Assembly: GCA_014905825.1 (NCBI GenBank)
Contig: JACGCN010000003.1
Span: 558,001-622,000, forward strand
Length of the DNA stretch: 64,000 nucleotides
Direction: 5' to 3'
Origin: Lyophyllum atratum
Lineage: Eukaryota; Basidiomycota; Agaricomycetes; Agaricales; Lyophyllaceae
The translations under genes were made by a program, and so were the position numbers. Below, in pieces: positions 8,565-60,254 of this stretch. Below the pieces are notes generated by a model. It worked only from the letters and a program-made list of their open reading frames with translations, searched no databases and was not told the DNA's origin. Positions within the stretch are counted from its first letter, which is position 1. The number at the start of each line of letters is the position of its first letter.

Positions 8565-11045
8565 ATGTCACCCGAAGTTGACTTGGTTATCACATTTCGG
8601 GCCACGAGAAAAACTAGCCTTTCCAAGCAGCAAATCCGCGAAGATTCTCGCAAGGCTGAACAGCAATATTCACGGTTGATTGACACACTTAGGTACGGAG
8701 GTCTTCGTGCGGTGGGGAGACGGGGAGAGTCGTTGGGTCACCTACTTGTATTTGTATCATGTCCAAAGAGCCATGTAGTGAATCTCGCCAAACGGGAGAG
8801 GTGCGTAGTGATTGGTTTTTCTTGAATACCACATGAACGGTTCATTTAGGCATTCGGACTTCTTATCTGGCTTACCGACGACACCCTTGGGCCCAGAGGC
8901 TGATCCCATTTCATTGTCTCCGGCGGACCGCATTCGACTGGTGCATGCCTACGTTTCCTCAATCCCAGCAGACGGCGGTTTAGGCATCACCCCTGGATCA
9001 TCTGAATGGGACCTTGTAGAATCTGTAATGACACTTCATGACCGAGAGTTCAACGAGAGGTGGACTCGCAGTTGGACGCCGCGCCAAATCGCTTCCGTGC
9101 AGCTGGAGAAAATCCGAGAACAGGTGTGTTATCCGTCTACTTACATGGACCATACTAAACAGCCAGCTTAGTTTGGCGACTCTGTCGCACTTTACTTCGC
9201 CTTTTTGGCTTCATACACCAAAGCCCTGGTATTCCCCGCCGTCTTAGGTTTCATATTCTACTTTTTTGGCGCGCCCTATTCCCCCATATATTCAAGTCTG
9301 GTCTTCGTATGGTCTGTTATCTTCGTCGAGTGGTGGCGTGTACACGAACGTACTCTCTCCCTGCGTTTTGGGACACGCGGCTCCTTCCGCGTAGAGAAGC
9401 GTCGCGCGGCCTATCAACCAGGGTTCCCGTGGTGGAAACGCGAACTGAGGATCCTCGCAAGCCTGCCTGTCCTTCTCGTGTTTGCTGGAACTTTGGCCGC
9501 GCTCCTCACTGGAATATTCGTCTTTGAAGCCTTTGTCACGCAGTTATATACTGGCCCAGGACACAAATATATCGTAAGTGGTGGACCGTCTACTTTCCAC
9601 CACAGTACTGATGCTCTCCCACCAGTCTTTTAGTCCTACGATTCTATTTGTAGCTCTCGTTCCGCGGTTCCTCGCTCTGTACCAATCACTGGCTCGGAGG
9701 TTGACAGAATGGGAGAATCATGCACACTATTCGACACACGCTGCCTCCCTGACGCTGAAAACCTTCGCGCTCAGCGCTCTCGTCGCGTACTTGGGCCTGG
9801 GCCTCAGCGCTTTCGTATACGTTCCGTTTGGCGAAGGAGTCATGCAATTCCTACAAACATGGATCTTCCACGAGACCACTAATGGCCACCTCCAAGGGGT
9901 GAACGCGACAGTGTCTGACGGTGCCTCGGAGAAAAAGGCCCCTGGACCCACGGGAGGATTCTGGGACATGGACAAATCGAATGCGAGTCGAAAGTTGAAC
10001 CCAGGCCGGCTGAAGGACCAGATGTTTGCGTATACGGTGACCAATCAGGCCGTCAATACCTTTGTTGAGGTGGGGCTTCCGTATATCCTTCGCGGCGTGT
10101 CGTCTTTCCGAAACAGAAAGAAAGGCGCGTCGGCTCCTAGCAGTCCTGGTGGGAAGAATAGTGTGAAGAAGCGGGTGGTGTTCGAAGACGAGAAGGAGAA
10201 GGGTGGGATGGAGGAGCGGGAGTTTTTGGACAGGGTACGGGAGGAGGTCGCGCTCCCTGAGTATGAGCTTTTCGGCGACTATAGTGAGATGGTCACACAA
10301 TTCGGCTATGTTGCACTCTGGTCGACCATTTGGCCACTTGCACCAGGTCAGTTTCATTTCTGTTCTCACATAATTTCGCAGTCATAACAGTGCGCATATA
10401 GTTATGGCCCTCCTAAACAACTTCCTTGAGCTTCGTTCCGACGCGTTCAAGATGACCGTCCACAATCGCCGTCCCATCCCGGCTCGCACAGATACCATTG
10501 GGCCCTGGCTCGATGCACTGACATTCCTCACCTGGCTCGCGGCCCTCACCAACTCTGCACTCGTGTACCTCTTCTGCCCGCGTTCACAGAGCCACTGTTC
10601 GGCGACGCCAAGTGCCCATATGACGCAACTCGACAACGTCCACAAGCATCTCTTCTCAGCGTCTGGTGCCCTTCCCCCGGATGGCGGGGCTGATGCTGGG
10701 ATCGTCGCGACCAGGGAGTTGCTGTTCACGGCACTGCTGATTGCCCTCGTGGCGAGTCACGGGTACATCGTTCTCAGAACCGTTGTGAGACATGTCGTTG
10801 AGAGGGTATTCTGGAAGGGCAGTGAGGAGGTTAAACAGCGGGAGCAGAAGGATAGGGAGATCAAGGAGAAGTTCTTGAAGGGCTTTTTGATTGAAGAGGA
10901 ACGCACGCGGGATGCGTCTGCGAGAGAGGATGAAGGGGCTGGTGAAGCGCGCGACGAGGATGGCCTGGATCCGGGGCCGGTTAATGGTTTCTGGGAGCAT
11001 GATGAAGGATTGGAAGAGATTTCGAGGGTGTCGAAGGAGGTTTAG
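8565..11045 (+). CDS. Anoctamin/TMEM16-family membrane protein (Ist2-like)
   Basis: Members of this family act as Ca2+-activated phospholipid scramblases or ion channels, or as ER-plasma-membrane tethers in fungi; which applies here is not shown. Five exons join in frame to about 758 residues: 8565-8800, 8850-9123, 9172-9573, 9626-10346 and 10402-11045. Residues 1-170 form the cytosolic alpha/beta domain (DLVITFRATRKTSLSKQQ ... HDREFNERWTRSW). The transmembrane part starts at FGDSVALYFAFLASYTKALV and includes the helices VLGFIFYFFGAPYS, SLVFVWSVIFVEWW, ILASLPVLLVFAGTLAALL, FSPTILFVALVPRFL, FALSALVAYLGLGLSAFVYV, then FGYVALWSTIWPLAPVMALL, with a late acidic block EEVALPEYELFGDYSEMVTQ typical of the family. 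The tail (from about residue 680) is highly charged. Its last 70 codons are copied at 13.77-13.98 kb. The start at 8565 is the first ATG of the conserved domain. Confidence 0.92.
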
Positions 11046-11925
11046 TCATCTGCCGCATAGACTCCGGAGATATTGCTGCCAGCGTACTTGCGTCTTTCTT
11101 GCTGCTACAATACATGACTATGTCTACTTCGTGTTCGACTGTTACACTGATTTACACGACAGTGCCACACGATCATAACTACGATTGGTACTCATACGAA
11201 GTCCACTTCCTGTGTTCTACATTATCTATCAAGCCTGTTGCCGCCACATACCTTCGTGAAGCTCTTGTACCAGCAGGCTACCGAAACTTCTTGTCAGGAT
11301 TCTCTGAATCCTTTGTATCTCGACCTGGGTTCTCCCGAGGTCGCAATCCGTATATTCTGTTACCGCTCGAGTACAACCGTTGGGGCCCCTTCGTTTCTAC
11401 CGAGTGTATTCGAGAAGAGTAGTTTTAGCATATACCATCAAAAACACAAGATTACCGTGTGGATAGGAGAGCAGGCGCTTTGGTTGAACTTTGAGCGTCA
11501 CATGATCTTGAAACATAAATTTGGGCGCCAAGAAAAGATAAGCAAGCATACAATCGGTGTGGATAGGAGAGCAGGCGCTTTGGTTAAACTTTGAGCGTCA
11601 CTTAATCTTGAAACATAAATTTGGGCGCCAAGAAAAGATAAGCATACAATCGCTGTTGGTAAAAAAGTATAAGTATAATGCATTGGAAGCAGGATGACGA
11701 AGATGTGACGTCGTGAGATGACTCAAGTCGAACGAGAGAATTTGAGAAAATCGTCGGAGGCAGCGAACATTGTTATATGGAAAACGCAGTACTTGATAGA
11801 CGAAGGAAGTTATAATGTTGAAATAGTTATCGGCCATTAACGTAGACAATCAACCGAAAGCTATACACTACTTTTTTTTGTCAAGAGAGGAACGAACTCG
11901 ACAGCCTTGTGACCTGTACCACCCC
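11046..11925. other. Intergenic, 3' flank of anoctamin and Gly-rich gene copy 1
   Basis: Convergent intergenic stretch inside duplication unit A. It contains the 100-bp direct repeat at 11457-11652. No additional gene is recognised. Confidence 0.5.
11457..11652. repeat. Direct tandem repeat, two units of 100 bp
   Basis: Unit one is 11457-11556 and unit two 11557-11652, nearly identical (for example GTGTGGATAGGAGAGCAGGC at the start of each) apart from a few substitutions and a 4-nt deletion. The homologous place in duplication unit B (about 14251-14338) has one diverged unit, so this repeat arose or was lost after the larger duplication. Confidence 0.9.
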
Positions 11926-12381
11926 TCACCAATGTCCTGACCACCGACCTCTGTTCCAACCTCCCCCATTCCAACCACGCCCATTCCAACCACCACCATT
12001 CCAACGGCCGTTATTCCAACGGCCATTGTTCCAACCACCATCGTTCCAACCACCGTTATTCCAACCGCCATTATTCCACCCATCATTGTTCCACCCGCCA
12101 CCATGGTTACCTCCGCCATTTCCACCATTTCCGCCATTACCCCCGTTTCCGCCGTTACCACCGCCACCATTGTTCCAGACGCCGTGATTGCCTCCACCGT
12201 TTCCACCATCTCCGCCGTCACCTCCATCCCCACCGTCACCGCCGCCGCCATTCCATGAAGTTCCTCTGACCTCCATGTTGTTCATCCTTGCGAATTTGGC
12301 GTTAGAACCATCGCCTGATGCAATGGGACTGGCAATGGCGAAGCCGAGGAGTGCTGAAACGACGAAAAATTGCAACTTCAT
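11926..12381 (-). CDS. Small secreted Gly/Asn/Trp-rich protein, copy 1 (intronless)
   Basis: Encodes 151 residues in one exon. A signal peptide (MKLQFFVVSALLGFAIASPI) is followed by a short spacer with MNNMEVRGTSW and then by low-complexity repeats: GGDGGDGG and GGNGGNGG runs, a block of GGWNN/NGGWNDGGWNN units, and the end GWNRGRWSGHW. The composition suggests a cell-wall-associated or aggregating extracellular protein, but no catalytic domain exists and I do not recognise a named family. A TATA box lies 136 nt upstream of the ATG. The paralogue at 14589-15019 has a 53-nt intron exactly where this copy reads through MEV. The open antisense frame of Pro/Phe repeats is a shadow. Confidence 0.85.
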   Translation of the reverse strand: MKLQFFVVSALLGFAIASPIASGDGSNAKFARMNNMEVRGTSWNGGGGDGGDGGDGGDGGNGGGNHGVWNNGGGGNGGNGGNGGNGGNGGGNHGGGWNNDGWNNGGWNNGGWNDGGWNNGRWNNGRWNGGGWNGRGWNGGGWNRGRWSGHW

Positions 12382-12516
12382 TGTGGTGTTGAGGTCGAGT
12401 TTTTTGAAGATTTGAAAAAGATTTTGCGATGAAAGTCGTTGATGCGACGATGAGTAGCTGAGAGGATGTGTATCTGGGAGATGTAGAGATGCTAGAAATC
12501 GAAGTCGAGAGGGCCC

Positions 12517-12523
12517 TTTTATA
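12517..12523 (-). promoter_or_regulatory. TATA box of Gly-rich gene copy 1
   Basis: TATAAAAGGG on the minus strand, 136-142 nt upstream of the start codon. The same element stands at the same distance upstream of the paralogue. Confidence 0.65.
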
Positions 12524-12724
12524 GACGTAGGAAAGGGGTTCAGAGCGTCCGAGGATGACCAGGTGGGTCGCCACCATATATCATGTGTAGTGAATCACTC
12601 CTCCAGAGGGGTCTGCTGACATTAGGGTTAATTGTTGGGCTTGAAGCCACGGCAAGCTCTGTAAAGTGTTCTGCACGGAGGTCCTTTAATTTATATCTCA
12701 GTTAAACGTATGTCCATTGCTTCA

Positions 12725-13980: not shown

Positions 13981-14588
13981 CAAGTTTACTTTTGGTCTTC
14001 TGCGCTATCTACCGAGCGTGTTACCGCCACTTACCTTCATGAAGCCCTTGGCGTAGTTGCGCTAATAGCAGCTACTGATATTTCTTGGCAAGACTTGTCT
14101 AAATCCTTTGTATCTCGACCTGGGTTCTCTCGAGGTCGCAATCCGTGTATTCTGTTACCGCTCGGCGAGTACAACCGTCGAAACCCCTTTGTTTCTGGTA
14201 CTATCGAATGTACTCCAGCAGAGTGGCTTTGACATGTACCATCAGAAGAAACGTGTGGATAGGAGAGCAGGCGACCTTTGAGCGTCACTTGATGGTAAAA
14301 CATAAATTTGGAAAGAGGCAGGATAAACAATCGAGGTTGTTACAGAAGATTATAGTGTAATGAAAGGTGATGACGTTGAGGAAGATATAACGTCGTTAAA
14401 CGGTTCAAGGTGAACGAGAATATGTCAAAGACGTTGCCGGAGGCAGCGAGACTATTTGAAGAACGAAGGTAATGATGAGGCTGTGATAATTGACATGCGC
14501 GCGAGCGGTAAATTGAAAGCTGTTGACTATTTAGTTTTTTGTTAAGGGCGTAACGAAACCAGGTCAACTTGTTAGACTATAAGACCGT

Positions 14589-15019
14589 TCACCAATGTCC
14601 CGACCACCGCCCTCGGTTCCAACCTCCCCCATTCCAACCACGCCCGTTCCAACCACCACTGTTCCAACCGCCATTATTCCAACCACCATGATTCCAACCA
14701 CCATGATTCCAACCGCCATTGTTCCACCCGCCACCATGGTTCCAGCCGCCATTGTTCCAGCCACCGCCATGGTTACCTCCACCATTTCCACCATTTCCGC
14801 CATTACCCCCATTTCCGCCGTTACCGCCGCCGCCATTCCACGACGTTCCTCTGACCTATGGCGCAAAGAGTTTAGAAAAGTAAAGATTAGACGGCAGAGG
14901 GTAACTACCTCCATGTTGTTCATGCTTGTGAATTTAGCGTCAGAAACTTCGGGTGATGCAATGGGACTGGCAATTGCGAAGCCGACGAGTGCTGAAACGA
15001 TGAAGAATGGGAACTTCAT
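14589..15019 (-). CDS. Small secreted Gly/Asn/Trp-rich protein, copy 2 (one intron)
   Basis: Paralogue of 11926-12381. Exon 1 (14909-15019) encodes the signal peptide MKFPFFIVSALVGFAIASPI and ends in NNME. A 53-nt intron (14856-14908) starts GTAGTT and ends CATAG. Exon 2 resumes VRGTSWNGGGG and continues with GGNGG runs, GGWNNGGWNHGG units and the same ending GWNRGRWSGHW with TGA at 14589-14591. The protein is about 125 residues, shorter than copy 1 because of fewer repeat units. It is presumably secreted and structural; function unknown. The start is fixed by the conserved signal peptide and the upstream TATA box. Confidence 0.85.
14856..14908 (-). other. Intron present only in Gly-rich gene copy 2
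   Basis: 53 nt, GTAGTT..CATAG, inserted between NNME and VRGTSW. Copy 1 reads the same codons without interruption. Confidence 0.9.
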
Positions 15020-15151
15020 TGTTGTGTGAGAGTCAAGCTTTTTTGGGTTTGCAAAAGTTTGCGATGAAGATCGTTGATGCAACGATGAGTGGATGCGTGG
15101 ATGTGTATCTGGAAGATGTATAGATGCTAGAAGTCAAAGTCGAGAGGGCCC

Positions 15152-16375: not shown

Positions 16376-17273
16376 AGTATAGGTACGCGCTGGGGGTATG
16401 GAGGGCAGAACAAGTGACGCTGTTCCGATCTGTTGGGAGGCCTGCTCGCCTCGATGGCGCGCTTTGGCATGCCAAAACTCACGGAGATTTCGATATTCCG
16501 GGGGAGAAGTAAGCTATTAAGAAAAGATACTTCGAGGGTAAGATCTCGTATAGAAATAGGGTTATATGAACACGATGCATAACCGGCAGGACCGACGCTG
16601 CAAGGTGTGAAGCATCAATTACATTCATGCCAATGATTTCATGGGCGTTCGAACGTTCAAATCTCATCGATGATCCACCGTTCCTCCAGATGAAGGAGAG
16701 AAGGAATAATACCTACCATCCATATGTAACGGGGTTTTGTTCATAGTTTGGGAACTAATTTGAGTAGATTTGAGGCGGTCCTAGATTTCGCACCAAGCCC
16801 ATTGGCAAAGGTGTGTTGTCCGAGTACAAAGCATGGCCATCCTGAACGGTGATAACGTGGAGCTTACTTGAGTGCAATGTAATTCGAGGATAGGTCGGTG
16901 ATTTGGAGTGGTATGGATCTCAAGAAGACCGACATGACGAAGGAACTGTGTCGGCAGATTCCGACGGCGTACTCCGCGACGTGACTCAGGCTGGAATACC
17001 GAACAGTTATTCTTCAGATTGAGACTAAAGGCATCCTACTTAGAGATAATGAATTTTTGATAGCCTTCGTGGATAACATAAACAGTAACAGGGTACATTA
17101 CAACTTCAAATATGAAAGCAAAACCGTCCATCGCATGCAAGATCGTAACAACCCCTCTCGGGGTCAGTGCAAAAAAAGAGGAGACAATTATCTACTATGA
17201 AGCAAAAAACGTAAGGGTCCCTCTGGCCATTACTACTTTTATTCGTTCATCTAGTCCAAACTTCTCGTGATCA
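16376..17273. other. Intergenic, no gene recognised
   Basis: AT-rich sequence downstream of the P450 and the duplicated region, with no convincing ORF, repeat or RNA gene. Confidence 0.45.
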
Positions 17274-18976
17274 TTACTTTCTGCGGACGAAATCCACATC
17301 GAGGTCGTGCGGGATGCTGAGCCCAAACGCGCCGAACTCGTTCTTGACCTGGTGCTCGTGCATACTGTTGGCAGGGAGCGACCATTCGTAGTTCACGAGC
17401 AGCATGCAAAGAAGCGTGCGTTGCTGTGAGTGCGTCAGTCAAGGCCGAGGACCGCAGGCTACGTGGAACACACACCTCGAAGAGCGAGAACTGCCTGGCG
17501 ACGCACTGGCGCGGGCCGGTCCCGAACGGAATGTTGATAGCCGCCCTCTGCCGGGTATCAATAAACCGATACGGGTCGAACTTCTGCGCCTCAGGCCAGT
17601 TGTTGTCGTTTTGGTGCACCGCGCATACGTTGGGCACGACGGAGGTGTGCGCCGGGATATAGTACTTGCCGAGTTTGACGGGCTCGAGCGTCCAGCGTGC
17701 GGGGAGGAGGGAGATGGGGCTGTTGATGCGGAGCGCTTCTTTTATGCACGCGTTGAGGAAGTTGGTGTTCGAGAGGTCCTGCAGGGTCGGTTCGGACCGG
17801 CCACCCAGGACGGAGAGGACTTCATCGCGTGCTTTTGATTGGTGCTCGGGGTGCTTGGCAAGGTGGTAGATAGCGGTTGAGAGCGCGCCGGAGGTGGTAT
17901 CCTGTGGGAGAGATGTGGCGCATCAGCACTCAGGGTGGAAGCTGACAGCCCGACGGCAGATGAATTAAACGCACATGTCCAGCCGAGAAAAGGATGGCGA
18001 GGTTCGATCGCAGTTCCTCGTTTGATAGGGTCGAGTCTTCCAAGAGATAACTTAAAAGGTCGAGGCCAAGGTCCTGACGCTTTAACTGGAGAAGTCCATC
18101 GTAGCGTGCGTTTAGCGCGTTGACGTCCGCGATTACGGCATGGCGAGGGAACCAATCGTCTAGGAAAGGAAAGATCAAGCGCGTAGGGGTCGCGATGCGG
18201 GACATGACGCGATTGAAGTGGTCCACGAAGGAGTCTTCTGAAGCCTGTAGTGCCTGGAAGTTGTGTCCCAAAAGGGCAGTCCCAACAACGTCGAGCGTGT
18301 AACGCTATAGAACAAGGGTTTAGGGTGCGATCCGTGGCTTTGTGGAAAAAGAAGTACCTGGACAAGGTCGCTGAATCGATGGATGCCTCCATCGCCCATG
18401 CGTTCGAAGAGTTCGTGGGAGAGGGTCACGAAGCGATGGACGGGTATCTCGCGATCGAACGCCGCCTTGACTGATGCAGAATGACGCTTCCACATGTCAC
18501 CGTTGGAGAAGACGACATTCGGGCCACTCAGGAAGGTGAAGTGCAGATGGTCCTGGTAGTTTTTCTTGGGGAACCTCTCCAGGTCCTGGCACACTGTCTT
18601 GACGAGCTTTGTTGAAAGGTTAAAAGCCGGTTCATAGTGACGGGTTACGAAGAACACATACGTCGGCATCAAGGACATGCACGCCCCATTTTCCAAGCAT
18701 GTAGACGAGAACGACGCCTTCGCCGCGTGTGGCAAAAGGCATTATGAGCCGCCTGACTCGAGAATCGACGGATTCCCTCCGAGCATAACTCCAGATGGTG
18801 GCGTACGGAGAGACTTTCGGTAGGTGTCGCAGTTCGGTGGGGACGGCGAGCATGTATTGCACGAAAGTGAACAATGCACCTGCGACGAGTAACCAGCGAA
18901 GGTCAACCGACGCGAATTGCTTGTGGAAAAACGCAGAAAGGTATGCATCCAGAGGGGGAATGTCGGATGAAGACAT
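17274..18976 (-). CDS. Cytochrome P450 monooxygenase
   Basis: Haem-thiolate monooxygenase, probably anchored in the ER by an N-terminal helix (WLLVAGALFTFVQYMLAV, residues about 29-46). Five exons join in frame from ATG 18976 to TAA 17274-17276, about 490 residues. Family motifs: the B-C region LHFTFLSGPNVVFSNGDMWK (helix C W-x-x-x-R is WKRHS); I-helix AGHDTTSG, formed exactly across an intron; K-helix ExxR in KEALRIN; PERF-like block FDPYRF; and the haem loop FGTGPRQCVARQ with the axial Cys. The usual Gly two residues after the Cys is Ala, a variation tolerated in fungal P450s. The substrate is unknown. It is divergently arranged with the MFS transporter at 20193, which might hint at a shared small-molecule role, but that is inference. 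Confidence 0.92.
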
Positions 18977-23152: not shown

Positions 23153-24938
23153 TCAAGGGATGCGTTTGGCACGGATGTTGGGATGCAGCCCACCAAGGAG
23201 AATCCTCTCCAACTTGTCGGGAGAGATCGTTCCCGGGCCGGCATACGGCACGCTGTCGACCATGTTCTAAGGGATAAGCACCAGGTTATTGGGATGGTGT
23301 CAGGGCAAAGACAAGATGTGCTTACGCCGGTATCGGCCTGCAGGAGCTTGGGCAGATTGGTAGCAGCAGTGGGATCGGAACCGATTTGCACGAACTGCAC
23401 ACCCATGGAGTTGGGGTGGTGCGGCCCAGCCTTGATACGTGCGCCGGCCTTGACAAGCACTTGAGTGAGCTCGAACTCAGCCGGGTCATCTTACAAAGCG
23501 TAGATGTCAGTAGTGTTGTCTCGTGGAAGGAGCGCTTGGTACGCACTGGGAACACCGTCGGTGATGCAGATGAGATCGAGGGGCTTGATCTGGCCATATG
23601 CCGGCGTGCCCTTGGCAGCCTCGAGTCTATCGATGTGAGCGTTCAGTATCGCGCTGACTCTGGTACCTGTCGGGGTGTTGCCTGAATGTGGACTAGTTAT
23701 ATTTGGTTTGAGCCGTGTGATAGAGAAACGAATTACCACTGGGGCCGACTTTCGTCATGGCCGCAGCAACTTTGCCTTTGTCCTAAGAAGTGACGAAATA
23801 GTGAGGAATAAGGCCTATGATTCAATTCTGAAGGTGTAGTCACCGTGACGGATTGAATCTCGTTCTTGAACAAGAATTTGTCATTGGAGTTGAGGAAGGA
23901 CATGTCGATGCCGTCAGCATCGAAGCCAGAATCGATGACGACGTTCGCAAGACCGTCGAGCGCGTTACGCGCCTCGACCCATCTGTTCTCGTCCGCCATC
24001 TGTCGTGAATATGTAAATTGGCGGTCAGACAAGTAAACGGAAGCAACAAACAGAGCCGGAGTCGTCGATGAGGAAGGAAACGTCATACTGCCTAATACGT
24101 TGATTTTAGCGAGTGCAGTGAATCTCAAATGAACAACTAACCTGAGGTAGTTCTCGAACTTGGAGGGACGAGGTAAATCGAGGACGGGGTTGTAACCCGG
24201 GATGACGTTGTCCGGAACTTTGGGCGGGATTTCATTCGGGTTGATCTTGACGACGTGAATAGTCAAGACGCTGAGGTCGACTTTCAAGACTCAATCCAAG
24301 TAAGATCAAAGCTTGAACCCACGAGTCATCATATTGCCCGCTGCCCGCGACTTGAGCAGTGTCCTTAGTATCCTCGACGAAGACCTGATCACAAAAAGGT
24401 GAGACTCATCCACCTGATGCGCGCAACACGTACGAAGTATGTAACGTAGTCAGGGATGCTTGCTGACGCGCCGTCAGGCTTGGCAGACTAGATAATGGAT
24501 ATACTTAGCAAGCGTCAGCGAGAAGAAAGTGCACGCGTACGAATTGAATGTCGAGCTTAGTGGAAGCGTAAGTCGGCTTCATGAAGTCTCTTGCTTTGAC
24601 ATCGGCAGCCGCGTCAGCGGCGTAGAATACTTTGACGTCCAGAGTGACGGGATGGTCGCGAGGCTCTACGGGGAACGTAGTTTTCCCGTTCGCCGCGTCG
24701 GGCATGGGGCCCTGGAGTCCCTTTTTACTGTGGAAGAGAACAGAGCTATCGAACGCATTGGTCTGAACGAAGATTCCCTGCTGGTAGGGTTTCCTAGAAA
24801 TCTGGACAAGAGCTGAGTTATCGTAAATGATGGTGAACATTGAGAAACACCTACAGCAGAGAGCGTAATGAACCAATCGGGCGGGATGGTAAATTGGACG
24901 GTGGAGCCGACGGGCGGGGTGAATGAAGGTCGAGACAT
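23153..24938 (-). CDS. Shared N-terminal module + von Willebrand factor A domain protein
   Basis: About 415 residues from about eleven short exons; no signal peptide, so probably cytosolic. Residues 1-165 are the module shared with three neighbours: MSRPSFTPPVGSTVQFTIPP, then ISRKPYQQ, LDVKVFYA, IPDYVTYF, VFVEDTK, YDDS and VLTIHVVK. The rest is a VWA domain with an intact MIDAS metal site: DVSFLIDDSGS (DxSxS), the Thr in GNTPTGTRVSAILNAHIDRL and the Asp in PLDLICITDGVP, ending with LERILLGGLHPNIRAKRIP. VWA domains bind protein partners through a divalent metal. The first VWA join uses the acceptor CCTCAG near 24270, chosen because it restores both frame and alignment with the neighbours. Divergent from the DyP gene at 25971. 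It may be the organising or sensing member of the cluster, which is inference. Confidence 0.82.
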
Positions 24939-25970
24939 GCTACGATGAATGACCAGAGCTCGTCTATCGCAGTTTATATACATAGGCCCAAAGTATACTC
25001 GGTTCAAATCAGTGTTTCTCGATTCAGAACTATGTTCGTGAATCGATCGGAATCGGTTCGTGCCAGGTCGTACCCCGCATTTCATATCGATCTTCGGAGC
25101 TCGAGCCAGGTGACGACTTCAGAGAACAATCAGAAGGATGTAGAAGACGCGACGTTGCTCTATCACAAAGCTTTCCTTCATTAGTATAGCGAAGATCCTT
25201 GGCCATCGAACATCGCTCATCGGCGGACCTGAAGTCAAACCCATCTCCTACTTGCCATCGATTATCCCAACCATTTAGAGTATAGCAAAGCCCCGAACAA
25301 AAATGAAGACCCTTGCTTCGAACATGGAGACGCGATAGTGGCGCTGGCAGAAGTGTGATCGGGTGGGAGTCGGTAGACAGCAATTATGGTCGACGTGTGC
25401 ACATGCCAAAGGTGCGATAAGTTAAAGCGAAATGCAACGAAATCCGACAGCAAGTCGCTTTCAACAAAGTGGATTTAGGCAAGGAGAGCGAGATGAATAA
25501 TAGTTACAAGAGCAGGTGAATGGTCAGCTGGGAGCATAAGACTGGTTTCTTGATTGACAGCTTAACTTTGAGCCCTCAAAGACAAGTTGAATGGAAGCAG
25601 CATGGAAGGGTTATGAACGTAGCCGTATCGTCCAGTTCGTCGGGAAGGTCTATCTCGAACAGGACAAGGAGATAAAGATCGTGAAGAGTGTGCGGGGCAA
25701 CCTTCGTCACAAGCAGGGACAAATATCCACCCTCTCGGTGATATCCAGTGCCGAACTTTTCATTACAACCATGTCATGTTCTTCTGTAGCACTCGGGGAG
25801 AAGTTCTTAGGATCTTGAACCTCAGGATTCACCGACTGGAAGAATCTCAGTTGTAGCATGCCCGCGCAAACACCTCCGATGATGCGGCTACTGCTATAGT
25901 ACTAAAACCCTGAGGTAGGTCACATTCGAGAACAAGTCCCATCTTCTCGGTCAGGACGTTCTCGCAAACC
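24939..25970. promoter_or_regulatory. Shared divergent promoter region of VWA and DyP genes
   Basis: 1.03 kb between the start codons of two genes with the same N-terminal module. TATATAAA for the VWA gene lies at 24973-24980. No TATA box as clear is seen near 25971. No convincing gene inside. Confidence 0.5.
24973..24980 (-). promoter_or_regulatory. TATA box of the VWA gene
   Basis: TATATAAA on the minus strand, 35-42 nt upstream of the ATG at 24938. Confidence 0.5.
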
Positions 25971-28361
25971 ATGTCTCGCCCAAAGTCTAGCGTAAATGGA
26001 ACCAATGTTAAGATTGTAGTACCCACTGGTTGGACCAGCATAGTGACTGCGGTAAATAGGGAATTCATTCTTTTTCCTCGACCAATTGCACTTACAATGA
26101 TCACATCAGGTCACTCGCAGGAGCTACAACCAACTCTTTGTATGCGAGCACGATGACGGAGGATCCATGCGCACGACCCTCTTTGCGAACAAATGGCAGA
26201 CTCCTGATGTGACGATGCTCGACACGTCCAATAACTCCCCTCAGCTCGGAATCAGCCCACAGACCGTCGCTGTGAATTTGAGTCTCCAGTTCTATTACTC
26301 TCAGACGGCGTCCACCAACGGGGCCGCTCTGCGAGCCGATCAGTACAAGAGTACTGAAATTAACGTCCTCACTGTGAGATCACTTACCCCTCACACCATT
26401 GTCTCTGCGTCTTCCTAACGCGCCTTATAGTCAGATAAGCCGCCCAATGCTCCTCCCGAGTTCCCGGACTATGTTTCCTATATTGTCCGTACTCCCATCT
26501 TTCTGTATCATTATGACCAAAGTCTGATGATATGCCACATTAGATCCTAGTAGAGGACGCACGTGCGGATCAACAGGCTCCGGGCAAGCCTCGGTTCGAC
26601 GATATGTGAGCTCATTCTCGCCTGGATGGTCTATTACCTGAGCTGACCTTCTCCGATGTTAGGGTCGTCACAGTCCACTGTATGAAGAACCAGCAGTCAA
26701 CGACGGCTCCGCCTGCCCCAGTATACAATCTACAGAACATCCAGGGTGATATCTTGTACGTATTTATCTTGACTATGATGATGTCAAAATAATTCAAGCT
26801 CGCGAACGCAGACCTTCTCTTCCCAAAGCCTTGGAATATTTCTACTATTTCCAAATAACTGATGTCGAAAGATTCCGTGCAACTTTCGGACAGTTCATCG
26901 TGCCAAAAGTCACAACAACCTTCCAACTCGCCAACGCTCCTGCTTTCCCACCACCTGGGACCCCAGGAATCACATTCCTTGGCCTTAACGTCGGGTTCAC
27001 CCACCTTGCTCTCCAGATGTTCGACATGACAGGCGACCTCCTCGATGACTCTTTCGTGAAGGGTCAACAGCAAGACTCCAAGTCTCTTGGCGACGCAGGC
27101 ACTCAGCGTGGAGACTTCTGGACCCCTCGCTGGGATCCCGAATACAAAGTCGACATCCACGGCATCTTCCTCATTACCGCGTACACCGACGCCATTGCTG
27201 CCCAGTTCGTGACAGACATGGAGAGGGCCTTCTCTTATAGCGCCAACCGCATGTCGATCAAGAAAGTCGTCCTCTTCAAGGGCGCGCCGCGCGCCAAACC
27301 CGAGGATCGAAACGACCACTTCGGGTACCGAGGTGGAATGTCCAACCCGCAGGTCAGAGGCGTATCCTTCGAGACCGTACAGCAACCCGAGATCAGGTAC
27401 CCCGGTTCACCTATCATTCCTTTGGGTGTAATCGTGATGGGCTACGACGGAGATGAGGACAAGGACAAGAGGCCGGCCTGGGCGAAGGACGGGACATTCA
27501 TGGTTACTCGCAAGCTGAACAATCTGGTACCCGAGTTCGACGACTTCTTGCTTCTCCATGGACCCAGGATCTTCCCGAATATTCCTGCCAAGGACGCCGC
27601 TGATCGTCTAGGCGCACGTCTCTTCGGAAGGTGGAAGGATGGTAAGCAGCTAAAATGATGATATATATTAGACCCGTTACTGATAGATTTATAGGCACGC
27701 CCACCGAGCTCTCTCCGGACGCGCCTGATCGCACCATCTCGGGCGATGATAAGAAGATCAACAACTTCGTCTTTGATCAGTCCAAGGGTCAGACTCGCTG
27801 CCCATTTGCGGCCCATATGAGGAAGTCGAACCCTCGAAACGATGTCTCGCCTGTTGAATCCGTCTTCAAGCACTTGTAAGTCCATTCTATCAACCAACCA
27901 TACTGCGCCTTATGTATTGGACTCTCTAGCATAAGGAGGCACAACATGCCATACGGCCCCGAGGTAAGCGCCGAAGAGCGTGACGGCCACGGCACGATCA
28001 ACGAGCGCGGCTTGCACGTCGTCTGCTATGCCAGCAGCATCGTCCGCGGCTTCAAGTTCTACCAGCAAGGTAATGTCATTATTCCCTTGTGCTCGCCTCA
28101 TTCCTTACTGAGCCTCATCACTTCGCAGCCTGGTACAACGAACCCAACTTCCCGCCTGGCAAACCCGAGCTTCCGGGCTTGGATCCTATCTTCGGACAAA
28201 CCGGCGAGGAGGACCAGGACAACCACCGTTACATGACTGGTTCGAACCCGAGCGCCGAGCAGCAGGTGATGTCGTTCCCCAAGAAGTTCATCGATCCGAG
28301 GGGTGGAGAGTACTTCTTCGCGCCGTCCATCTCGACCATGAAGAGTATCATCGCGAAGTAG
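25971..28361 (+). CDS. Shared N-terminal module + DyP-type peroxidase-like protein (DyP1)
   Basis: Nine exons: 25971-26051, 26110-26373, 26431-26484, 26544-26605, 26663-26755, 26812-27641, 27695-27875, 27930-28069 and 28129-28361 (1938 nt, 645 residues). Residues 1-165 are the shared module (MSRPKSSVNGTNVKIVVPTG, VTRRSYNQ, LSLQFYYS, FPDYVSYI, ILVED, FDDM, VVTVHCMKN). A short linker leads to a dye-decolorizing peroxidase domain: NLQNIQGDI, PGTPGITFLGLNVGFTHLAL, KPEDRNDHFGY, WAKDGTFMVTRKLNNLVPEF, the proximal haem His in CPFAAHMRKSNPRND, the distal Arg segment IRRHNMPYGPE, and GLHVVCYASSIVRGFKFYQQ. The GXXDG motif, whose Asp is the usual catalytic acid, reads GYRGG here. No signal peptide, unlike many secreted fungal DyPs. 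It may therefore be haem-binding with altered peroxidase chemistry. Confidence 0.9.
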
Positions 28362-29144
28362 GTCTCAGATAGTGTCATCTTCTGCTGTGGGTCCTGAGTA
28401 AGAATGAAATCTGTACTATGTTCTATGTATGCATCTGTACCAAATCTTGCGAATGTTACTATCGAACGTTGACTCTTTGCGTTTCTTCGTTCTGGCTAAG
28501 CACGATCGGAAATTCAGACGACTCCTCGCAAGTTCGTGGAAGTGACTTCGAGTTCGTGGGCAGGGGTTTGGTGCTTAGACGTCCGCGCATTGGGTCAGTG
28601 ATCGCTAACTCGAAGCGCTACTTAGAAGTATTTAAAGTTTCCAACTTAAGACATCAACATATCTTCCAGCGTCTGGGAGCTGGTGTTGCGAGTAAATGAC
28701 GCCTAAGACCACTTCATGACCCTTTCGATGGTTTGTAGTCCTGTAAAGAAGATCAGATCGTGTAGAGACTTCCTATTTTACTGTGAGATAAACTGCGGGT
28801 GTCCTCAACGGTGTAAAAGATGAAAATATAGGAAGTATCCACGACATATCTCAGTCGTGTACAGCATATCGACTGAGATACATCCGTATACCCTATCAAC
28901 TCGTTGGCGGGGTGCTAGCCACTCCTATTTGACGATGATCTTATCCAAGATCTTATCTTATCAATTCACCTTCCGCGATTACGCAGCGACGTTTCTTGAA
29001 AGTTCGTGTGCTCGACACTTGGGGACCAGAGTTTGTTCAAGTCGCTTCATGTTCAAATAATAGCACAGTTTATTTCGCATTGTTACATCAGAGTACAGTT
29101 AATAGCTATGTCGACGGCCCGCATTCGGCCGCGACGCAGTCCCT
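28362..29144. other. Convergent intergenic region
   Basis: About 0.8 kb between DyP1 and the module-only gene. Nothing recognised. Confidence 0.45.
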
Positions 29145-29839
29145 TCACTTCTGGACGAAGTGAATGGTTGCAACGCTAGAGGTATGTGATCAGGTCGAGG
29201 GGAGGGGAAGATTGTGAAGGTACGCACGCATCATCGAATTGACCTGTATTGGCCTCTTGGCTAGATGTGTCCTCGACGAAGACCTGTAAGGCGTCAGAGA
29301 CCGATCTGTATGACGAAAAGAGACACCTACAAAGAAGGTGATGTTATCGGCTCCCGCAAAGGAGCCAGGGAGCTTCGCTGCCTGCGAACACAGTAAGTTA
29401 CGCCATCTCTTACACAAGAGACGAAAATAGAACACTTACTTGAACGACGTGAACTTTGCTGGAGAAAGATTTGTTCGTGGCCAACACCTCAGCCGATTTG
29501 ACTGGTGTGGTGGAGTAGTAGAAGGCGAATTCTAGTTCGTAATCGTCGTCCTGGGCGACAAGTGGAAGGGAGGTCGCCTTGTCGAGAGTGACCTTCATTT
29601 GTTCGTTGACTGAACTGGGCTCCGACCCGAATACACGGGTGTTTCGAACAAAGAAGTCGTACGAAACTGCACAACCCTGTGAGTATGGTTTGCGAGAGAT
29701 CTGTTGTAATGCATTAGGAGCGATTCGATCCTGTGGATGAGGAGGTATTTACGGCGGTGGTGATCGCATACCAGTTGGCAGGAACATTGATTGTGAATTT
29801 GGCACCAACGGGGTTTGCAGCGAGTGATGGACGGGACAT
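29145..29839 (-). CDS. Module-only protein: the shared N-terminal domain on its own
   Basis: About 161 residues in five exons with the same intron positions as the other three genes. It reads MSRPSLAANPVGAKFTINVP, then ISRKPYSQGCAVSYDF, ELEFAFYYSTTP, ADNITFF, VFVEDTSSQ, FDDA, and stops right after VATIHFVQK (TGA 29145-29147). The stop falls exactly where the VWA, DyP and flavoenzyme genes pass into their own domains. The module is therefore a natural unit able to exist alone. It appears beta-rich, with alternating hydrophobic residues. I do not recognise it as a known family, and no signal peptide or membrane segment is present. It could be a homotypic partner or assembly subunit for the three multidomain proteins, which is inference. 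Divergent from the flavoenzyme gene. Confidence 0.8.
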
Positions 29840-29885
29840 GGCTAAAGGCGAAGGATAAGGCTGAGTTCGACTTGTGTGTGTAAGC

Positions 29886-29892
29886 TATTATA
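29886..29892 (-). promoter_or_regulatory. TATA-like element of module-only gene
   Basis: TATAATA on the minus strand, 47-53 nt upstream of the ATG at 29839. Confidence 0.4.
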
Positions 29893-31132
29893 TGGCGCGA
29901 AAGATGCAAGCTCCCGTGATTCTTAAGGTGGTCTCAGGATCTCAAAGGGATTTCGATAGCGCAGAATCTCGCTTGCTCAAAAGCTGGGCAACCTGAGGAT
30001 TTTGATATCAGATAACGAAGTGACAGGGTGAGCGTACACCCCAGAAACGTTAGGAACGCGCTCCAGCCGCCGGACAAGCTTGTGCATTGTCTTTGGACGC
30101 CATTCTAGCTCCACGAAGCAGGGATGAGATGGCAATCAAAGAGTTTTCAAGATCTGATACCGACGCTATGAATCACGAGAACAGCGCAGTTAGGTGCGAA
30201 GTTTAGGCTGGCAGGGGGAATGAAGGCTCGGGGTCGAAGATGATGTCGTCGAGCCGCTGAACTCATGATCATCGACGTCAGAATAAGGGCTGATTCGAGT
30301 AACGAACCAACGTGCCTGATAACCGAGCTTGGGTTATAATCTGTTTGGTTGTTTTTTCTTCGGAGCCATCACAAGCCCGGACGGACACAGTTCTAAACTC
30401 AACCAGGTGGAAGTGGCGCATTCCCTTGATTCTACTCGCAAGATTAATCGCGTTTATCGTACACCATGCAAAGCTCCATTATAGTACCCGTTTTTGACGG
30501 CTCATTAAAGGCGTTATGGAAGCCTCGAAGTTGTATGTCCGTAGTTGGAGCATCCTTGTCTTCCAGGTTCTGATTTTCATCTTCTAGACGACACGAAGCT
30601 AGCTAGACTTATCACAGAAGAGGGTTCGGGTTCATCCCTATGAACCGCCCTACCTTCGGATGCATTTCTTCGGCACTCGCTCTAAGGTCTTCGACCCCAG
30701 ATCTTCAGCAATTCTGCGTAGGCTGCATATTTACTGCCGAAACCTTCCTGCTTTGCTAGTAAAGATCAGTCGGGTGACTCATATCGATATCTATCTAATC
30801 CGAATCGTGGAATGGCTTGCACACATGTGGTTATCAGTTCCTCAACTGCCAATATCCCCGGAGAAGCTCCCTCCAACACATCACAACGTCATACATCTGG
30901 ACCTGACGATGAAAAGGAGATGCAACGCCCCTACCAGAAAAGTGAACCAAGATTAAGGGCAACGATGGCGCAAGACAAGAAACCACGGGTCCTTCTTGCA
31001 TCCGAATTATAGTTGTCAGTTCAGGACGGAGCAAGAAGAATGTCATTACTGCAAGCAACTTCGCGGAATCCTGGGGTCTCTCGAGGAAATCCCACCATTT
31101 CAAATCCCAAACCCTATGACACGGAACGTATC

Positions 31133-31139
31133 TTATAAG
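31133..31139 (+). promoter_or_regulatory. TATA-like element of flavoenzyme gene
   Basis: TTATAAG, 45-51 nt upstream of the ATG at 31184. Confidence 0.4.
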
Positions 31140-31183
31140 TGCGTAGGACTTCTCACACAAATCAGCGCATCCCACAAATTGCC

Positions 31184-33949
31184 ATGTCTCGACCGAAGCT
31201 CGCCTCTGCCACCGGCACCAGTTTCCAAATCGACATCCCCGATGGGTGGTTCACCACCATCAGCGTTGTACGTCGGTCTCATAAAGCAAGCAATGATTGC
31301 GATGTATTGATATGCCTGTGTTCACCAGGTATCTCGCAAAACATACAACCATCTGGTTGTTGTGAAGTATGAGTTCAGCGGCATCAATCGTACTTCGAGA
31401 ATCTGCAACACATATGGAACACCAAACGAAGTCATGCAAGACATCTTGAATGGCGATGTCACCCTTGGAATCATCCCTCAGGACGACCCTCAAACTATTT
31501 CCATCGACACTTACTACTCCACCATCGGCTCTGCGAAGAGGGAGAAACTCCTCGACAACAAGTACAGAAGCACTCGCGCCAATGTCATCACGGTACATTA
31601 TTTTCGCCCTAGGCGAGACACCAGCAACTGACGCGTTTCCTTAGAACAATAAGCCTGTTGGCGCTCCACCCGAGTTCCCGGATTACACGACGTTCCTCGT
31701 AAGTTCGTTGGCTAAGCTTTTTGAACCTATTTAACGACGAGGTCGGTGTAGATTTTCATAGAGGATGGCCCCGCTGGCGCTCCTGGTGCACCCGAGTATG
31801 ACGATGTGTAAGCTGTCCACCCCACACAATAAACCAAAACTCATAAGTCAATAGCATCATCGCCGTGAACATCATCAAGGGCTTTCAGGCGCCGGCCCCT
31901 CCTCCCATCGACACTGGGTCTGCGGCGCTTACTCAGAATGGTAAAGATGCCGTCCAAGAGTACATCAATCAGTATACCGACCCCACGGCTCCTGGTCCAT
32001 ACATTCCCATTCCTCCTGGTCCGATCCCAAAACCCGTTTATCCGCCTCTCACACCTGAGCTCAAGGCACTCCCTGTCTGCATCTTGGGCGCCGGCGTCTC
32101 TGGTCTCTACATTGCCATGATGCTTGACACTCTCGGGATCAAGTATGAGATCATGGAAGGATCGCCTCGTGTCGGAGGTCGTCTTTACACGCACAATTTC
32201 CCGACCAACCAAGGGAAATATCAGTACTATGTGAGTATCCATATTCTAGTCTCATCAACGCAAAGCATCGATGCTCATCCTCTATTTTCAGGATGTTGGA
32301 GCCATGCGTTATCCCGACACTTCCTTTATGCAGCGCACGTTCGACCTTGCGCGCAATAGGCTGGGTCTCAAGGACAAGATGCTCAAGTATCTTCGCGCCA
32401 ACGACAACGCGTTCCTTCACTACAATGGTATCACAGTGACGAAAGCCCTGAACAACGCTACCCCGGCAGCGGCCGATATCTTCAAGGCCAGTAAGACCAG
32501 AGATGGCTATGTGCCTGACAAATACGTTACCGAGGGCTCAGGAGTTTTCTGGGATGTCATCCTTGGTGACCTTCGTCAACTCTTCGTCGACAATCCGTTC
32601 GACGTCGCCTTCCAGAAGTTGAAGGAGCTTGATGGCCATACCGTCACGAGCTACCTCACTTTCGTGAAGGAAATCCCGTACCCCGTCATCAAGTGGTACG
32701 AGACGATGGAGTCGCGTACCGGTCTCTTTGACCAATCTCTGACTGAGACCGTTCTCGCGTCGCTGGTCTTCATGGATCCCCGGTTTAAGGGCAAGGAAAT
32801 TGATTGGTTCTGCTTCGAGTAAGTCCCCTGCCAACCTCCATCGTTGCGAGCGCCGCACTCACAAAACTGTTCAGCGGCGGATCCGAAATCATCCACAAGG
32901 CGATGCAGGAAAGGATCCATTCCAAGCCGGTCCTTAATAATCGGGCGATCATCATCAAGGAAACCGACGATGGCCAGAGCGTCACCGTCACATTCGACTT
33001 GTCGGGTGGCCCTCGCCAGGTCGCCGCTCAAGTCGAGAAGAAATACTCCAACGTCATCTCCACCATGTCCATGGCCTGCTTGCGCATGGTCGACCTCGAC
33101 AAGATCTACCTCTCGAATGCTCAGCGTAGTGCCATCCGTCAGCTCACTTACACTCCATCCATCAAGATCGGTCTTCAGTTCAAGACCCCCTGGTGGGAGA
33201 AGCTCGGCATCGAGGGTGGCCAGTCTTCCACCGATCGTCCCATCCGCGACGTCGTGTACCCGTCGTATGGCCCCGATGACTCGCACCCCGGTTTCAAGAA
33301 GTCCAACTGCATGATCGCAGCTTACAACGGCATGCAAGACTCTCAGCGTCTCGGCGGTCTCATGAAGGGACGCGGCACTCCCGAAGAGAAGATCCTCCTC
33401 GACATCGTCATGCGCGACCTCGCCGTTTTGCACAACGTTCCCGTCGACGATCTCTGGAAGGAATACGAGGACTACTACCCATGGGACTTCTATCGTGACC
33501 AGTACCAGCTCGGTAAGCTCAAGCTCCTTGTCTTCGCGTCTTCGCTCACTAATCCCCTGAATGTGCAGGCGCGTTCTGCCAATTCGGCCCCGGCCAATTC
33601 AAGAACACCTACCCTCACGTGACGCAGCCCGCCTCCAGACAGCAGAGGTTGCACTTCGCTGGTGATGCGACTAGCACGTTCCACGGGTCAGTTCGACGTT
33701 ATACTATTACATCCCATGTCTAGCGCTGACCGCCTCGTGACCTCTAGATGGGTCGCCGGCGCGTTGAACAGTGGTTGGAGGGCCGTGTTGGGCCTGTTGC
33801 AGAACCACCCTGAGCTCAACCCCAATCCCAGTGAGGACATCATCGAGAAGTTCAAGAACCTCTGGGGCCCGTCAGAGGAGTGGGATGCCAAGGATCTCGC
33901 TACGCTCAACTACATCAACCAGCAAGTCACGAAGATGAACAACCCTTAA
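31184..33949 (+). CDS. Shared N-terminal module + L-amino-acid/monoamine-oxidase-like FAD enzyme
   Basis: Nine exons: 31184-31267, 31329-31592, 31645-31698, 31752-31807, 31855-32230, 32292-32818, 32875-33512, 33569-33686 and 33748-33949 (2319 nt, 772 residues). Residues 1-160 are the shared module (MSRPKLASATGTSFQIDIPD, VSRKTYNH, ISIDTYYS, FPDYTTFL, IFIED, YDDV, IIAVNIIK). After a Pro-rich linker (YIPIPPGPIPKP) comes the FAD/NAD(P) Rossmann segment VCILGAGVSGLYIAMML with the acid residue in KYEIMEGSPRVGGRLYTH, then DVGAMRYPD, a substrate domain, and the C-terminal FAD motif RLHFAGDATSTFHGWVAGAL. This layout matches flavin amine oxidases such as L-amino-acid oxidases, which release an oxo acid, NH3 and H2O2. 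No signal peptide. The substrate is uncertain. Confidence 0.9.
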
Positions 33950-49989: not shown

Positions 49990-52900
49990 CTAACCCAAGT
50001 ATACTTGAGTCGCGATCATGTCCCTCATAGTCGAGATGGATGGCGCGAAGAAGTACTCCCCTCCCTTGACGTCAATGAACTTCTTGGGGAACATCATCAC
50101 CTGCTGTTCCGCCGTGGGGTTGGTACCAGTCATGTAACGGTGGTTATCCAGGTGCTCCTGGCCAGTCTGTCCAAAAATAGGATCCTGGCCAGGAAGTTCG
50201 GACTTGCCAGGGGGGAAGTTGGGTTCATTGTACCAGGCTGCACGTCGAATGGGTCAGAGAGATCACAAGACAGTGTCAAAGGATGCATGGTCTACCTTGC
50301 TGATAGAACTTGAAGCCGCGGACGATACTGCTGGCATAGCAGACAACGTGCAAGCCGCGCTCGAAGATCGTGCTCTTGCCTTCACGCTCTTCTGCGGTTA
50401 TTTCTTGCCCATATGGCATGTTGTGCCTCCTGATGCTACAATGGGCAGAGCTTGACGTTAATTCGCCATCTTGAGGACTGAAGGATGAACATACAAATGT
50501 TTGTACGCGGACTCGATGGGAGAGACGTCGTTCCGAGGGTTCGACTTCCTCACGTGAGACGCAAATGGGCAGCGAGTTTGACCCTTGGACTGATCGAAGA
50601 CAAAGTTGTTGACCTTGTCGTCTTTACCAGAGATATCGGGATTAGGACCGTCCGGAGAGAGCTCAGTTGGGGTGCCTGTACCGTTACGCACATCAGCAAA
50701 CGGGTCAACATGCAACACATTCAGCTGCTCACCATCCTTCCACCTTCCGAAAAGCCGTGCGCCTAGTCGATCAGCGGCGTCCTTCGCCGAAATGTTAAGG
50801 AAGATCTTGGGTCCATGCAGAAGTAAAAACTCGTCAAACTCGGGAACGAGGTTGTTCAACTTGCGAGTGACCATGAAAGATCCGTCCTTCGCCCACGCCG
50901 GCCTCTTGTCCTTGTCTTCATCGCCGTCGTAACCCATCACAATCACACCAATAGGGATGATAGGTGAGCCGGGATACCTGATCTTGGGTACCTGGGTAGT
51001 CTCGAAGGAGGCACCTCTGATCTGTGGGTTGGACATCCCGCCTCTGTACCCGAAGTGGTCATTCCGATCCTCGGGTTTAGGACGCGGTGTCGCCTTGAGA
51101 AGAACGACTTTCTTGATCGACATGCGGCTGGCGGTGTACGAGAAAGCTTTCTCCATGTCTGCTACGAACTTGGCAGCGATGGCGTCCTCGTACGCGGTGA
51201 TGAGGAAGATGCCGTGGATATCGGCCTTGTATTCGGCGTCCCATTGAGGCGTCCAGAAGTTGCCACGCTGAGTGCCTGCGTCGCCGAGAGACTTGGAGTC
51301 TTGCTGTTGACCCTTCTCGAAAGAGTCGTCGAGGAGGTTGCCTGTCATGCCAAACATCTGGAGAGCGAGATGGGTGAACCCTACGTTGAGGCCTAGGAAC
51401 GTCACTCCAGGAGTGCCTGGTGGAGGGAGTTGAGGATTGCTGGCGATCTGATGGGACGTGGTAATTTTCGGAACGATGAACATCCCGAATGTGTCGCGGA
51501 ATTTCGCAAGGTTGGTGATTTCGAAGTAATAGAAGTACTCCAAAGCCTTTGGCAGAGAGGGCCTGCGAGTAATGTTCGTTTAAGTTAATTATTTGGCAGA
51601 TGTTGACACTTACAAAATATCGCCCTGAATATTCTTCAAGTTGTATGTTGGCGTAGGACTATCCACAGGTGGCTTAGATACATCGACAGGTGGCTTCGAG
51701 CAGTCGACGGGGGGCTTTAGACAGTCGACAGGTGGCTTCGAGCAGTCGACGGGGGGCTTTGGACAGTTGACAGGGGGCTTTGGACCGTCGGTGGGAGGCT
51801 TGGGACCGTCGGTAGGCGGCTTGGGACCATCGGTGGGGGGTTTGGGACCGTCGGTAGGTGGCTTTGGACCGTCGGTGGGGGGCTTCGGCCAGTCGGTAGG
51901 CGGCTTGGGACCATCGGTGGGGGGCTTGGGACCATCGGTGGGGGGCTTTGGACCGTCGGTGGGAGGCTTTGGACCGTCGGTGGGAGGCTTGGGACCGTCG
52001 GTAGGCGGCTTGGGACCATCGGTGGGGGGCTTGGGACCATCGGTAGGCGGCTTTGGACCGTCGGTGGGGGGCTTTGGACCGTCGACGGGGGGCTTTGGAC
52101 CGTCGGTGGGAGGCTTGGGACCATCGGTAGGCGGCTTGGGACCATCGACGGGTGGCTTGGGACCGTCGGTGGGGGGCTTGGGACCATCGGTGGGGGGCTT
52201 GGGACCATCGGTGGGGGGTTTGGGACCGTCGGTAGGCGGCTTGGGACCGTCGGTGGGCGGTTTTGGACCGTCGATGGGTGGTTTTGGACCGTCGGTGGGC
52301 GGCTTCGGCGGATTAACCGGAGGGCCCCAAGGTGGAGGACCCTGTCATAAGAGATCGTCAGACTCGTTAAATGTGGAAAGTGATGTCTCGTCATACCGAT
52401 GGGCCGCCACCTGGTCCAGGAGGTCCTCCTGGGCCTGCTCCCCAACCTGGTCCGCCTCCTCCTGGTGGTCCTCCACCTGGTGGTCCTCCCGGGCCTGGCC
52501 CCCACCCAGGTCCTCCTCCTCCAGGTCCCCCTCCTCCTGGCGGTCCTCCCGGGCCAGGTCCCCAACCAGGTCCCCCTCCTCCAGGTCCTCCTCCTCCTGG
52601 CGGTCCTCCCGGGCCATGTCCCCAACCAGGTCCCCCTCCTCCTGGTGGTCCTCCCGGGCCAGGTCCCCAACCAGGTCCCCCTCCTCCAGGTCCCCCTCCT
52701 CCTGGTGCTCCTCCACTAGGTGGTCCTCCCGGGCCAGGCCCCCACCCGGGTCCCCCTCCACCTGGTGGTCCTCCTCCAGGCGGTCCCTATTGCGACGATT
52801 CGTCAGATGCTCGTAAAAGAAGATACATCGTAGCTCACCCCTCCGCCGCCGGGTCCACAGCCTGGTCCTCCCTGCCGTCGATGTTACATCAACCATCTGC

Positions 52901-60217: not shown

Positions 60218-60254
60218 GGTAATCCGTAGAGGGGCAACACTCCTCCGCTGGCAC

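Follow-up and report, generated by a model that had tools for sequence, protein, structure and literature searches.

The locus described here raises the question of why four neighbouring genes of the agaric Lyophyllum atratum should begin with one and the same protein module when three of them then continue into three unrelated domains and the fourth stops. These genes are contained in a stretch of 64,000 nucleotides (contig JACGCN010000003.1 of assembly GCA_014905825.1, 64.8 Mb; positions 558,001 to 622,000 of the forward strand), which is referred to as the window and whose numbering is used throughout. Gene models were spliced by hand from the DNA letters, all introns being GT-AG, and the modules were delimited by splicing, blastp and intron positions, giving the following features (lengths in amino acids, aa):

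23153-24938, minus strand: VWA fusion gene, 11 exons, 414 aa; identical to deposited protein P0013
24246-24938, minus strand: module of the VWA gene, residues 1-162, five exons
25971-28361, plus strand: DyP1 fusion gene, 9 exons, 645 aa; hand splicing only
25971-26687, plus strand: module of DyP1, residues 1-162
29145-29839, minus strand: stand-alone module gene, 5 exons, 161 aa; identical to deposited protein P0001
31184-33949, plus strand: L-amino acid oxidase (flavoenzyme) fusion gene, 9 exons, 772 aa; identical to deposited protein P0022
31184-31879, plus strand: module of the L-amino acid oxidase, residues 1-161

The VWA, stand-alone and oxidase models agree in every letter with the deposited L. 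atratum proteins, P0022 being deposited under the name L-amino acid oxidase, and for DyP1 no deposited match was present among the returns of three protein searches. The genes form two divergent pairs, of which VWA and DyP1 share an upstream region of 1.0 kb, and the 161-residue gene and the flavoenzyme gene one of 1.3 kb.

The modules, corresponding to the first 161-162 residues, aligned from end to end by blastp in six of six pairs with 27-41% identity (E 1e-17 to 1e-44, from pairwise runs and hence against a tiny database), while the flavoenzyme module alone retrieved a DyP fusion at E 8.6e-33 from a database of 5.8 billion sequences. In all four genes introns occupy the same alignment columns (29, 119, 137 and 158, with phases 0, 0, 0 and 2), and because these introns are shared a duplication of the module must have happened. 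As judged from the sequences, the module is common to the four genes by descent through duplication, and chance or convergence is excluded as the source of the likeness. This agrees with an earlier note, made from the DNA letters alone, which had proposed one homologous module on four clustered genes, each starting with MSRP, as indeed all four models do; the motifs which it listed are present, except that the 161-residue gene has ADN where the other three have PDY. The module/downstream-domain border lies within an exon in three of three fusions, and exon shuffling at the border was ruled out on this ground, the fusions not having arisen by that simple route. No significant match to the module was obtained in Pfam, NCBIfam or PDB sequence searches; eight weak Pfam families among 23 module rows, each in at most 3 of the 23 members, were dropped as chance matches (best E 0.012, Ig_J_second). 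Of 36 and 40 pattern matches, none could be confirmed as a bacterial or viral relative of the module, nor was a prokaryotic relative of the whole oxidase found among 86 matches to two short patterns, which is a weak test.

The earlier note was thus correct in placing the module outside known families, no Pfam family having matched, but its description of the module as unrecognised does not extend to the fold, as an AlphaFold2 model of the stand-alone module predicts with high confidence the beta-sandwich of LecB/PA-IIL lectins; the other three modules are assigned to this fold by homology only. The model is based on a 23-row alignment (A2) without P0007, P0008, P0011, P0012, P0016, P0017, P0021, P0025, P0031 and the hand-spliced DyP1. 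Members of the LecB/PA-IIL family are described in the available text of PMC9700728 and PMC8752737 as dimers formed through swapped C-termini which bind fucose or mannose via two calcium ions, and the former source, in the part available, ascribes a plan similar to LecB to thrombocorticin and calls the swapped C-terminus a hallmark of the family. The corresponding Pfam profile, PF07472, gave no match at E<=10 among the 23 module rows (HMMER filters drop weak hits) and none at E<=10 in the L. atratum genome searched exon by exon.

Conservation of the putative metal site was followed in 26 modules (P0007, P0008, P0010, P0011, P0012, P0017 and P0021, being truncated, partial or oddly spliced, are left out), with equivalence to LecB residues set by spacing and strand order and not by residue-level superposition. 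Two acidic pairs are invariant across the 26 modules: Glu-Asp at the end of the penultimate long strand, and Asp-Asp at the beginning of the last. The LecB ligand set (Glu95, Asp99, Asp101, Asn103, Asp104) is retained in part, in that the Glu and two late positions are invariant in all 26, and in the loop between the acidic pairs no column is conserved as acidic. The place of Asp99 is acidic in 1/26 modules and that of Asp101 in 9/26, all nine being oxidase modules with Glu (9 of the 10 oxidase modules). In three of seven stand-alone proteins the chain ends 10 residues past the second Asp, which is the LecB spacing, and in the other four it ends after 11-13; all ten oxidase modules have Gly at the C-terminal place, as in LecB, but there the chain continues. 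A linker, Pro-rich in the VWA and oxidase proteins, follows the module in the fusions. The metal site is accordingly LecB-like but altered, the acidic pairs being kept and the acids of the loop not, and the fusions extending past the C-terminus. Just one column is fixed by group across three groups of modules (26 rows), and for this reason no interface is readable from the sequences.

With the module as query, 12, 11 and 11 proteins were retrieved at E<=0.01, representing 32 distinct proteins, three of them from the L. atratum genome; the protein database is clustered and was searched by shared short words, and absence elsewhere is not shown by it. All 12 named species carrying the module are agarics, and the module was met here in fungi only. 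The ten species placed by taxonomy look-up all belong to the Agaricales (suborders Tricholomatineae, Agaricineae and Pluteineae), L. shimeji and one Coprinopsis species being placed as agarics by genus. At least two module types occur in six species, and in six of six these lie on one contig, as seen directly in L. atratum and deduced elsewhere from equal contig sizes (in brackets below); closeness was taken from locus-tag numbers in four species, the tags of L. atratum itself not being positional.

L. shimeji: single module, VWA and oxidase, on one contig (1,001,936)
Asterophora parasitica: oxidase 009506, single module 009507 and VWA 009509, on one contig (68,817)
Crucibulum laeve: single module 689696, VWA 689699 and oxidase without tag, on one contig (284,459)
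Hypsizygus marmoreus: oxidase 008897 and single module 008898, on one contig (1,729,883)
Agrocybe chaxingu: VWA g7449 and oxidase g7452, on one contig (14,288)

Tricholoma matsutake, Coprinopsis cinerea, Volvariella volvacea, Cyclocybe aegerita and Sphagnurus paluster yielded one module type only. The earlier note had held that scattered genes in related genomes would speak against a joint system; the stand-alone, VWA and oxidase module genes came out clustered in those genomes, in favour of such a system, with the DyP member seen in one other species only. Within L. atratum itself, module copies at E<=0.001 were found at this locus and its second copy only (searched exon by exon; lower bounds).

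In a tree of 28 modules (P0007, P0010, P0011, P0012 and P0021 left out, P0008 and P0017 kept) single groups are formed by the stand-alone modules (support 100/100), the VWA modules (99/98) and the oxidase modules (79/93), and the two DyP modules stand beside the oxidase group without being resolved as one. Label changes on this tree number three, the minimum possible, as compared to 14.4 in shuffles. Because the module types form separate groups, the fusions predate, on the evidence of this tree, the divergence of the sampled lineages, and the best explanation is that the four genes represent an old Agaricales unit. The locus is present a second time on contig C80, which we read as a second haplotype; at 93-94% DNA identity, the order of the four genes is preserved there and none of them has an internal stop. 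Between the two copies the ratio of non-synonymous to synonymous change (dN/dS) of the module is 0.016 for VWA, 0.00 for the 161-residue gene, 0.078 for DyP1 and 0.00 for the oxidase, and arms-race evolution of the modules was ruled out by these very low values. In the VWA gene the module is slower than the VWA domain in one of five comparisons and faster in four. As a separate observation, the copies on C75 and C80 differ at approximately 6% of DNA letters, a seemingly large difference for haplotypes of a single fungus.

The domains attached to the module are each recognisable. The oxidase matched Amino_oxidase (PF01593, 127.3 bits), and its nearest PDB match is 9enh, named L-amino acid oxidase 4 (E 1.7e-87), with the L-lysine oxidases 7c3i and 7d4c also close; a flavin amine oxidase domain is thus indicated by both comparisons. 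We take 9enh to be hcLAAO4 of Hebeloma. Among the 40 PDB matches listed, the best stretches start at oxidase residue 215 at the earliest, and residues 1-214 are covered by the best stretch of none. The VWA protein is laid out as N-terminal LecB-fold module, Pro-rich linker and VWA domain, the last matching PF00092 at E 6.5e-5 with 23.7 bits, 0.1 bit below the cut-off of 23.8, and containing the sequences DDSGSM, TPTGT and TDG, read by eye as the DxSxS, Thr and Asp motifs of the metal-ion-dependent adhesion site (MIDAS) type, which supports its assignment as a VWA domain. On contig C24 (L042, approximately 2880-5130) a VWA paralog shares the PGYNP linker, and a patatin-like stretch (GGGxRG and GTSTGG, read by eye) lies upstream of it in place of the module; no match to this paralog was found within the module portion of any of the four queries.

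DyP1 contains a DyP domain (DyP_N, PF21105, 120.7 bits), as does the Cyclocybe aegerita fusion P0032 (TIGR01413, 151.2 bits). A paralog without the module lies outside the four-gene unit:

49990-53264, minus strand: DyP2, 906 aa, hand splicing

In DyP1 (hand model), DyP2 (aligned to solved DyPs) and P0032 the motif GxxDG, which provides the distal Asp, is replaced by GYRGG, and the CPFA.H region, presumably the heme ligand, is kept despite this change of Asp to Gly. DyP2 carries, in the place of the module, a segment rich in Gly, Pro and Trp and encoded by six exons, together with about 30 repeats of KPPTDGP type (29 copies by Tandem Repeats Finder); compared with DyP1, it looks like a naturally occurring exchange of N-terminal devices. 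The match between the second copy of DyP2 and DyP1 begins at residue 148 and takes in, of the module, just the final 15 residues beside the DyP domain, and the other DyPs on C62 and C35 matched none of the four queries within the module. An Asp-to-Gly change at the distal site is reported for clade III of fungal DyPs, and presumably intracellular DyPs are there called uncharacterised (Adamo et al. 2022, PMC9064869, available text); from the distal residue alone DyP1, DyP2 and P0032 may be placed in this clade.

The explanation that we prefer, with a rough probability of 0.45, is that the module is a lectin-type oligomerisation or docking domain and that the cluster encodes a mixed assembly with a role in defence. 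Modules would pair via the last strand and C-terminus, as in LecB, also between different members, the free module subunit would fill and adjust the assembly, and the mixed particle would set a peroxide source beside a heme protein and a metal-dependent binding domain. In such a cascade the oxidase would make hydrogen peroxide, ammonia and keto acids, the DyP would bind heme and may use or sense the peroxide, and VWA may bind a partner through metal; the particle would be stored inside the hypha and freed on wounding to provide an oxidative defence. A co-assembled complex, which the earlier note had proposed as an alternative to co-targeting and which is thus supported in part, is plausible because LecB-fold members form dimers, glycan targeting being equally natural; since LecB-type domains form dimers and tetramers, the occurrence of one free and three fused modules is in keeping with a mixed assembly. 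A plain hydropathy scan revealed no signal-like stretch at the N-terminus of the four proteins and none has an SKL C-terminus, and the proteins are for these reasons probably cytosolic or exported by an unusual route. It is rather doubtful that the LecB-type fold serves as a common tag which co-assembles the oxidase, the modified DyP, the VWA protein and the free lectin subunit into one glycan-targeted oxidative weapon, and we put forward with the same reserve that such a multi-enzyme chimerolectin complex is without a described counterpart. The system was not described in titles and abstracts of the partial open-access literature searched and, to our knowledge, the LecB-type lectin fold has not been reported from fungi.

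Several observations weigh against this assembly. The chain runs beyond the last strand in three of the four genes, where a free C-terminal carboxylate would not be available to complete the site of a neighbour. Foldseek comparison with LecB-type structures gave moderate TM-scores of 0.38-0.55 (query length) at 8-16% identity, and in the module model confidence is lowest for the calcium-loop stretch, with a predicted local distance difference test score of 75. Peroxidase turnover by DyPs with GYRGG is, from their sequences, uncertain. Between genera the oxidase module (46-62% identity) changes faster than its enzyme domain (69-82%), these ranges representing five of seven comparisons with the two nearest relatives left out. 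No promoter word of 7-10 letters is common to the 500 bases upstream of all four genes. The module-DyP fusion is seen in two species only (L. atratum and Cyclocybe aegerita), no search with the DyP module having been made, and in one Coprinopsis species two single-module proteins are scattered on different contigs. Finally, C. cinerea encodes a module-oxidase fusion (P0028), and its fruiting bodies appear without amino acid oxidase activity in Table 1 of PMC7248570, as far as the available text goes.

The module could instead be a working calcium-dependent lectin, in which case the fusions would be independent chimerolectins aimed at fucose or mannose surfaces of grazers or bacteria, with no mixed complex. 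The fold, the partly conserved metal site and the Glu found by spacing at the Asp101 place in nine of the ten oxidase modules are consistent with this, and fungi arm lectins with effector domains, as exemplified by CCTX2 in the available text of PMC13324453. We nevertheless regard it as somewhat unlikely: the Asp99 and Asp101 equivalents are acidic in only 1 and 9 of 26 modules, PF07472 is unmatched, and independent toxins need neither a free stand-alone copy nor tight clustering. The incomplete metal site would also suit a LecB-derived fold that does not bind sugar and serves homo-oligomer formation, enzyme solubility or inhibition, in a cluster for amino-acid nitrogen use or peroxide balance. 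Very strong constraint, instead of fast arms-race change, points the same way, as do the N-terminal parts which precede the catalytic domain in other L-amino and L-lysine oxidases (7d4c aligns only from its residue 75). This explanation appears decidedly unlikely, however, in view of the invariant acidic pairs, which suggest a metal or ligand site still in use, and autoinhibition of one enzyme hardly explains three unrelated partners and a free copy. That a tandem duplication of the module simply picked up neighbours, with no joint function, is highly improbable; the shared introns do require duplication, but the three module types (stand-alone, VWA and oxidase) diverged earlier than the sampled lineages of three suborders and yet are linked in 6/6 informative species.

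Known systems provide partial likenesses. From the LecB/PA-IIL proteins, which comprise bacterial LecB, RS-IIL, CV-IIL, BclA, BC2L-A and the C-terminal domain of BC2L-C as well as sponge thrombocorticin, the module differs in the lack of a PF07472 match, in a longer calcium loop without the conserved middle Asp, in its position N-terminal to enzymes and in being met here in fungi only. It is not filed as a PA-IIL lectin, as neither the sequence profile nor the full ligand set was found, and would work like a chimerolectin or a lectin-type oligomer. With fungal chimerolectins such as CCTX2, which are generally stored in the cytosol, the fusions share their mushroom origin and a lectin-type domain joined to another domain; a hydrophobic N-terminus was not seen in the fusions. 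They differ in that the lectin is putative, that it is combined with an amino acid oxidase, a DyP or a VWA domain, and that there is a free module in a conserved cluster. The oxidase has the flavin amine oxidase domain of the fungal enzymes 9enh, 7c3i and 7d4c, but differs from solved L-amino acid oxidases, among the 40 PDB matches listed, in its module and Pro-rich linker and its length of 772 aa. Mushroom L-amino acid oxidases are antibacterial through their enzyme activity according to the available text of PMC7248570. The DyPs resemble those of clade III in the change of distal Asp to Gly and the lack of a signal peptide, and differ in the N-terminal lectin-fold module, which is unmentioned in the available text of PMC9064869. 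The predicted lectin-fold domain, attached to a hydrogen-peroxide-producing enzyme, a heme-peroxidase-type protein and an adhesion-type domain and once free-standing, suggests an oxidative protein system, so far undescribed, that has stayed together in mushrooms. If so, a lectin fold well studied for bacterial adhesion would have found a second use in mushrooms, where it would tag oxidative enzymes in modular fashion; a function would be offered for two groups hitherto uncharacterised, L-amino acid oxidases that bear the module and DyPs that have lost the catalytic Asp, and testable protein-protein contacts and glycan ligands would be predicted.

Other genes in the window named by Pfam, which give no sign of membership in the four-gene unit, are:

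3-686: coproporphyrinogen oxidase
9578-10384: anoctamin
17254-17922: cytochrome P450
34759-35043: GH76
59189-60289: GATA factor

Two similar frames with repeats of 15-45 bases are present on the minus strand at 11929-12594 and 14567-15133, the latter having a secretion-like start and no Pfam match, and a 100-base unit is repeated in 1.9 copies with 96% identity at 11457-11644.

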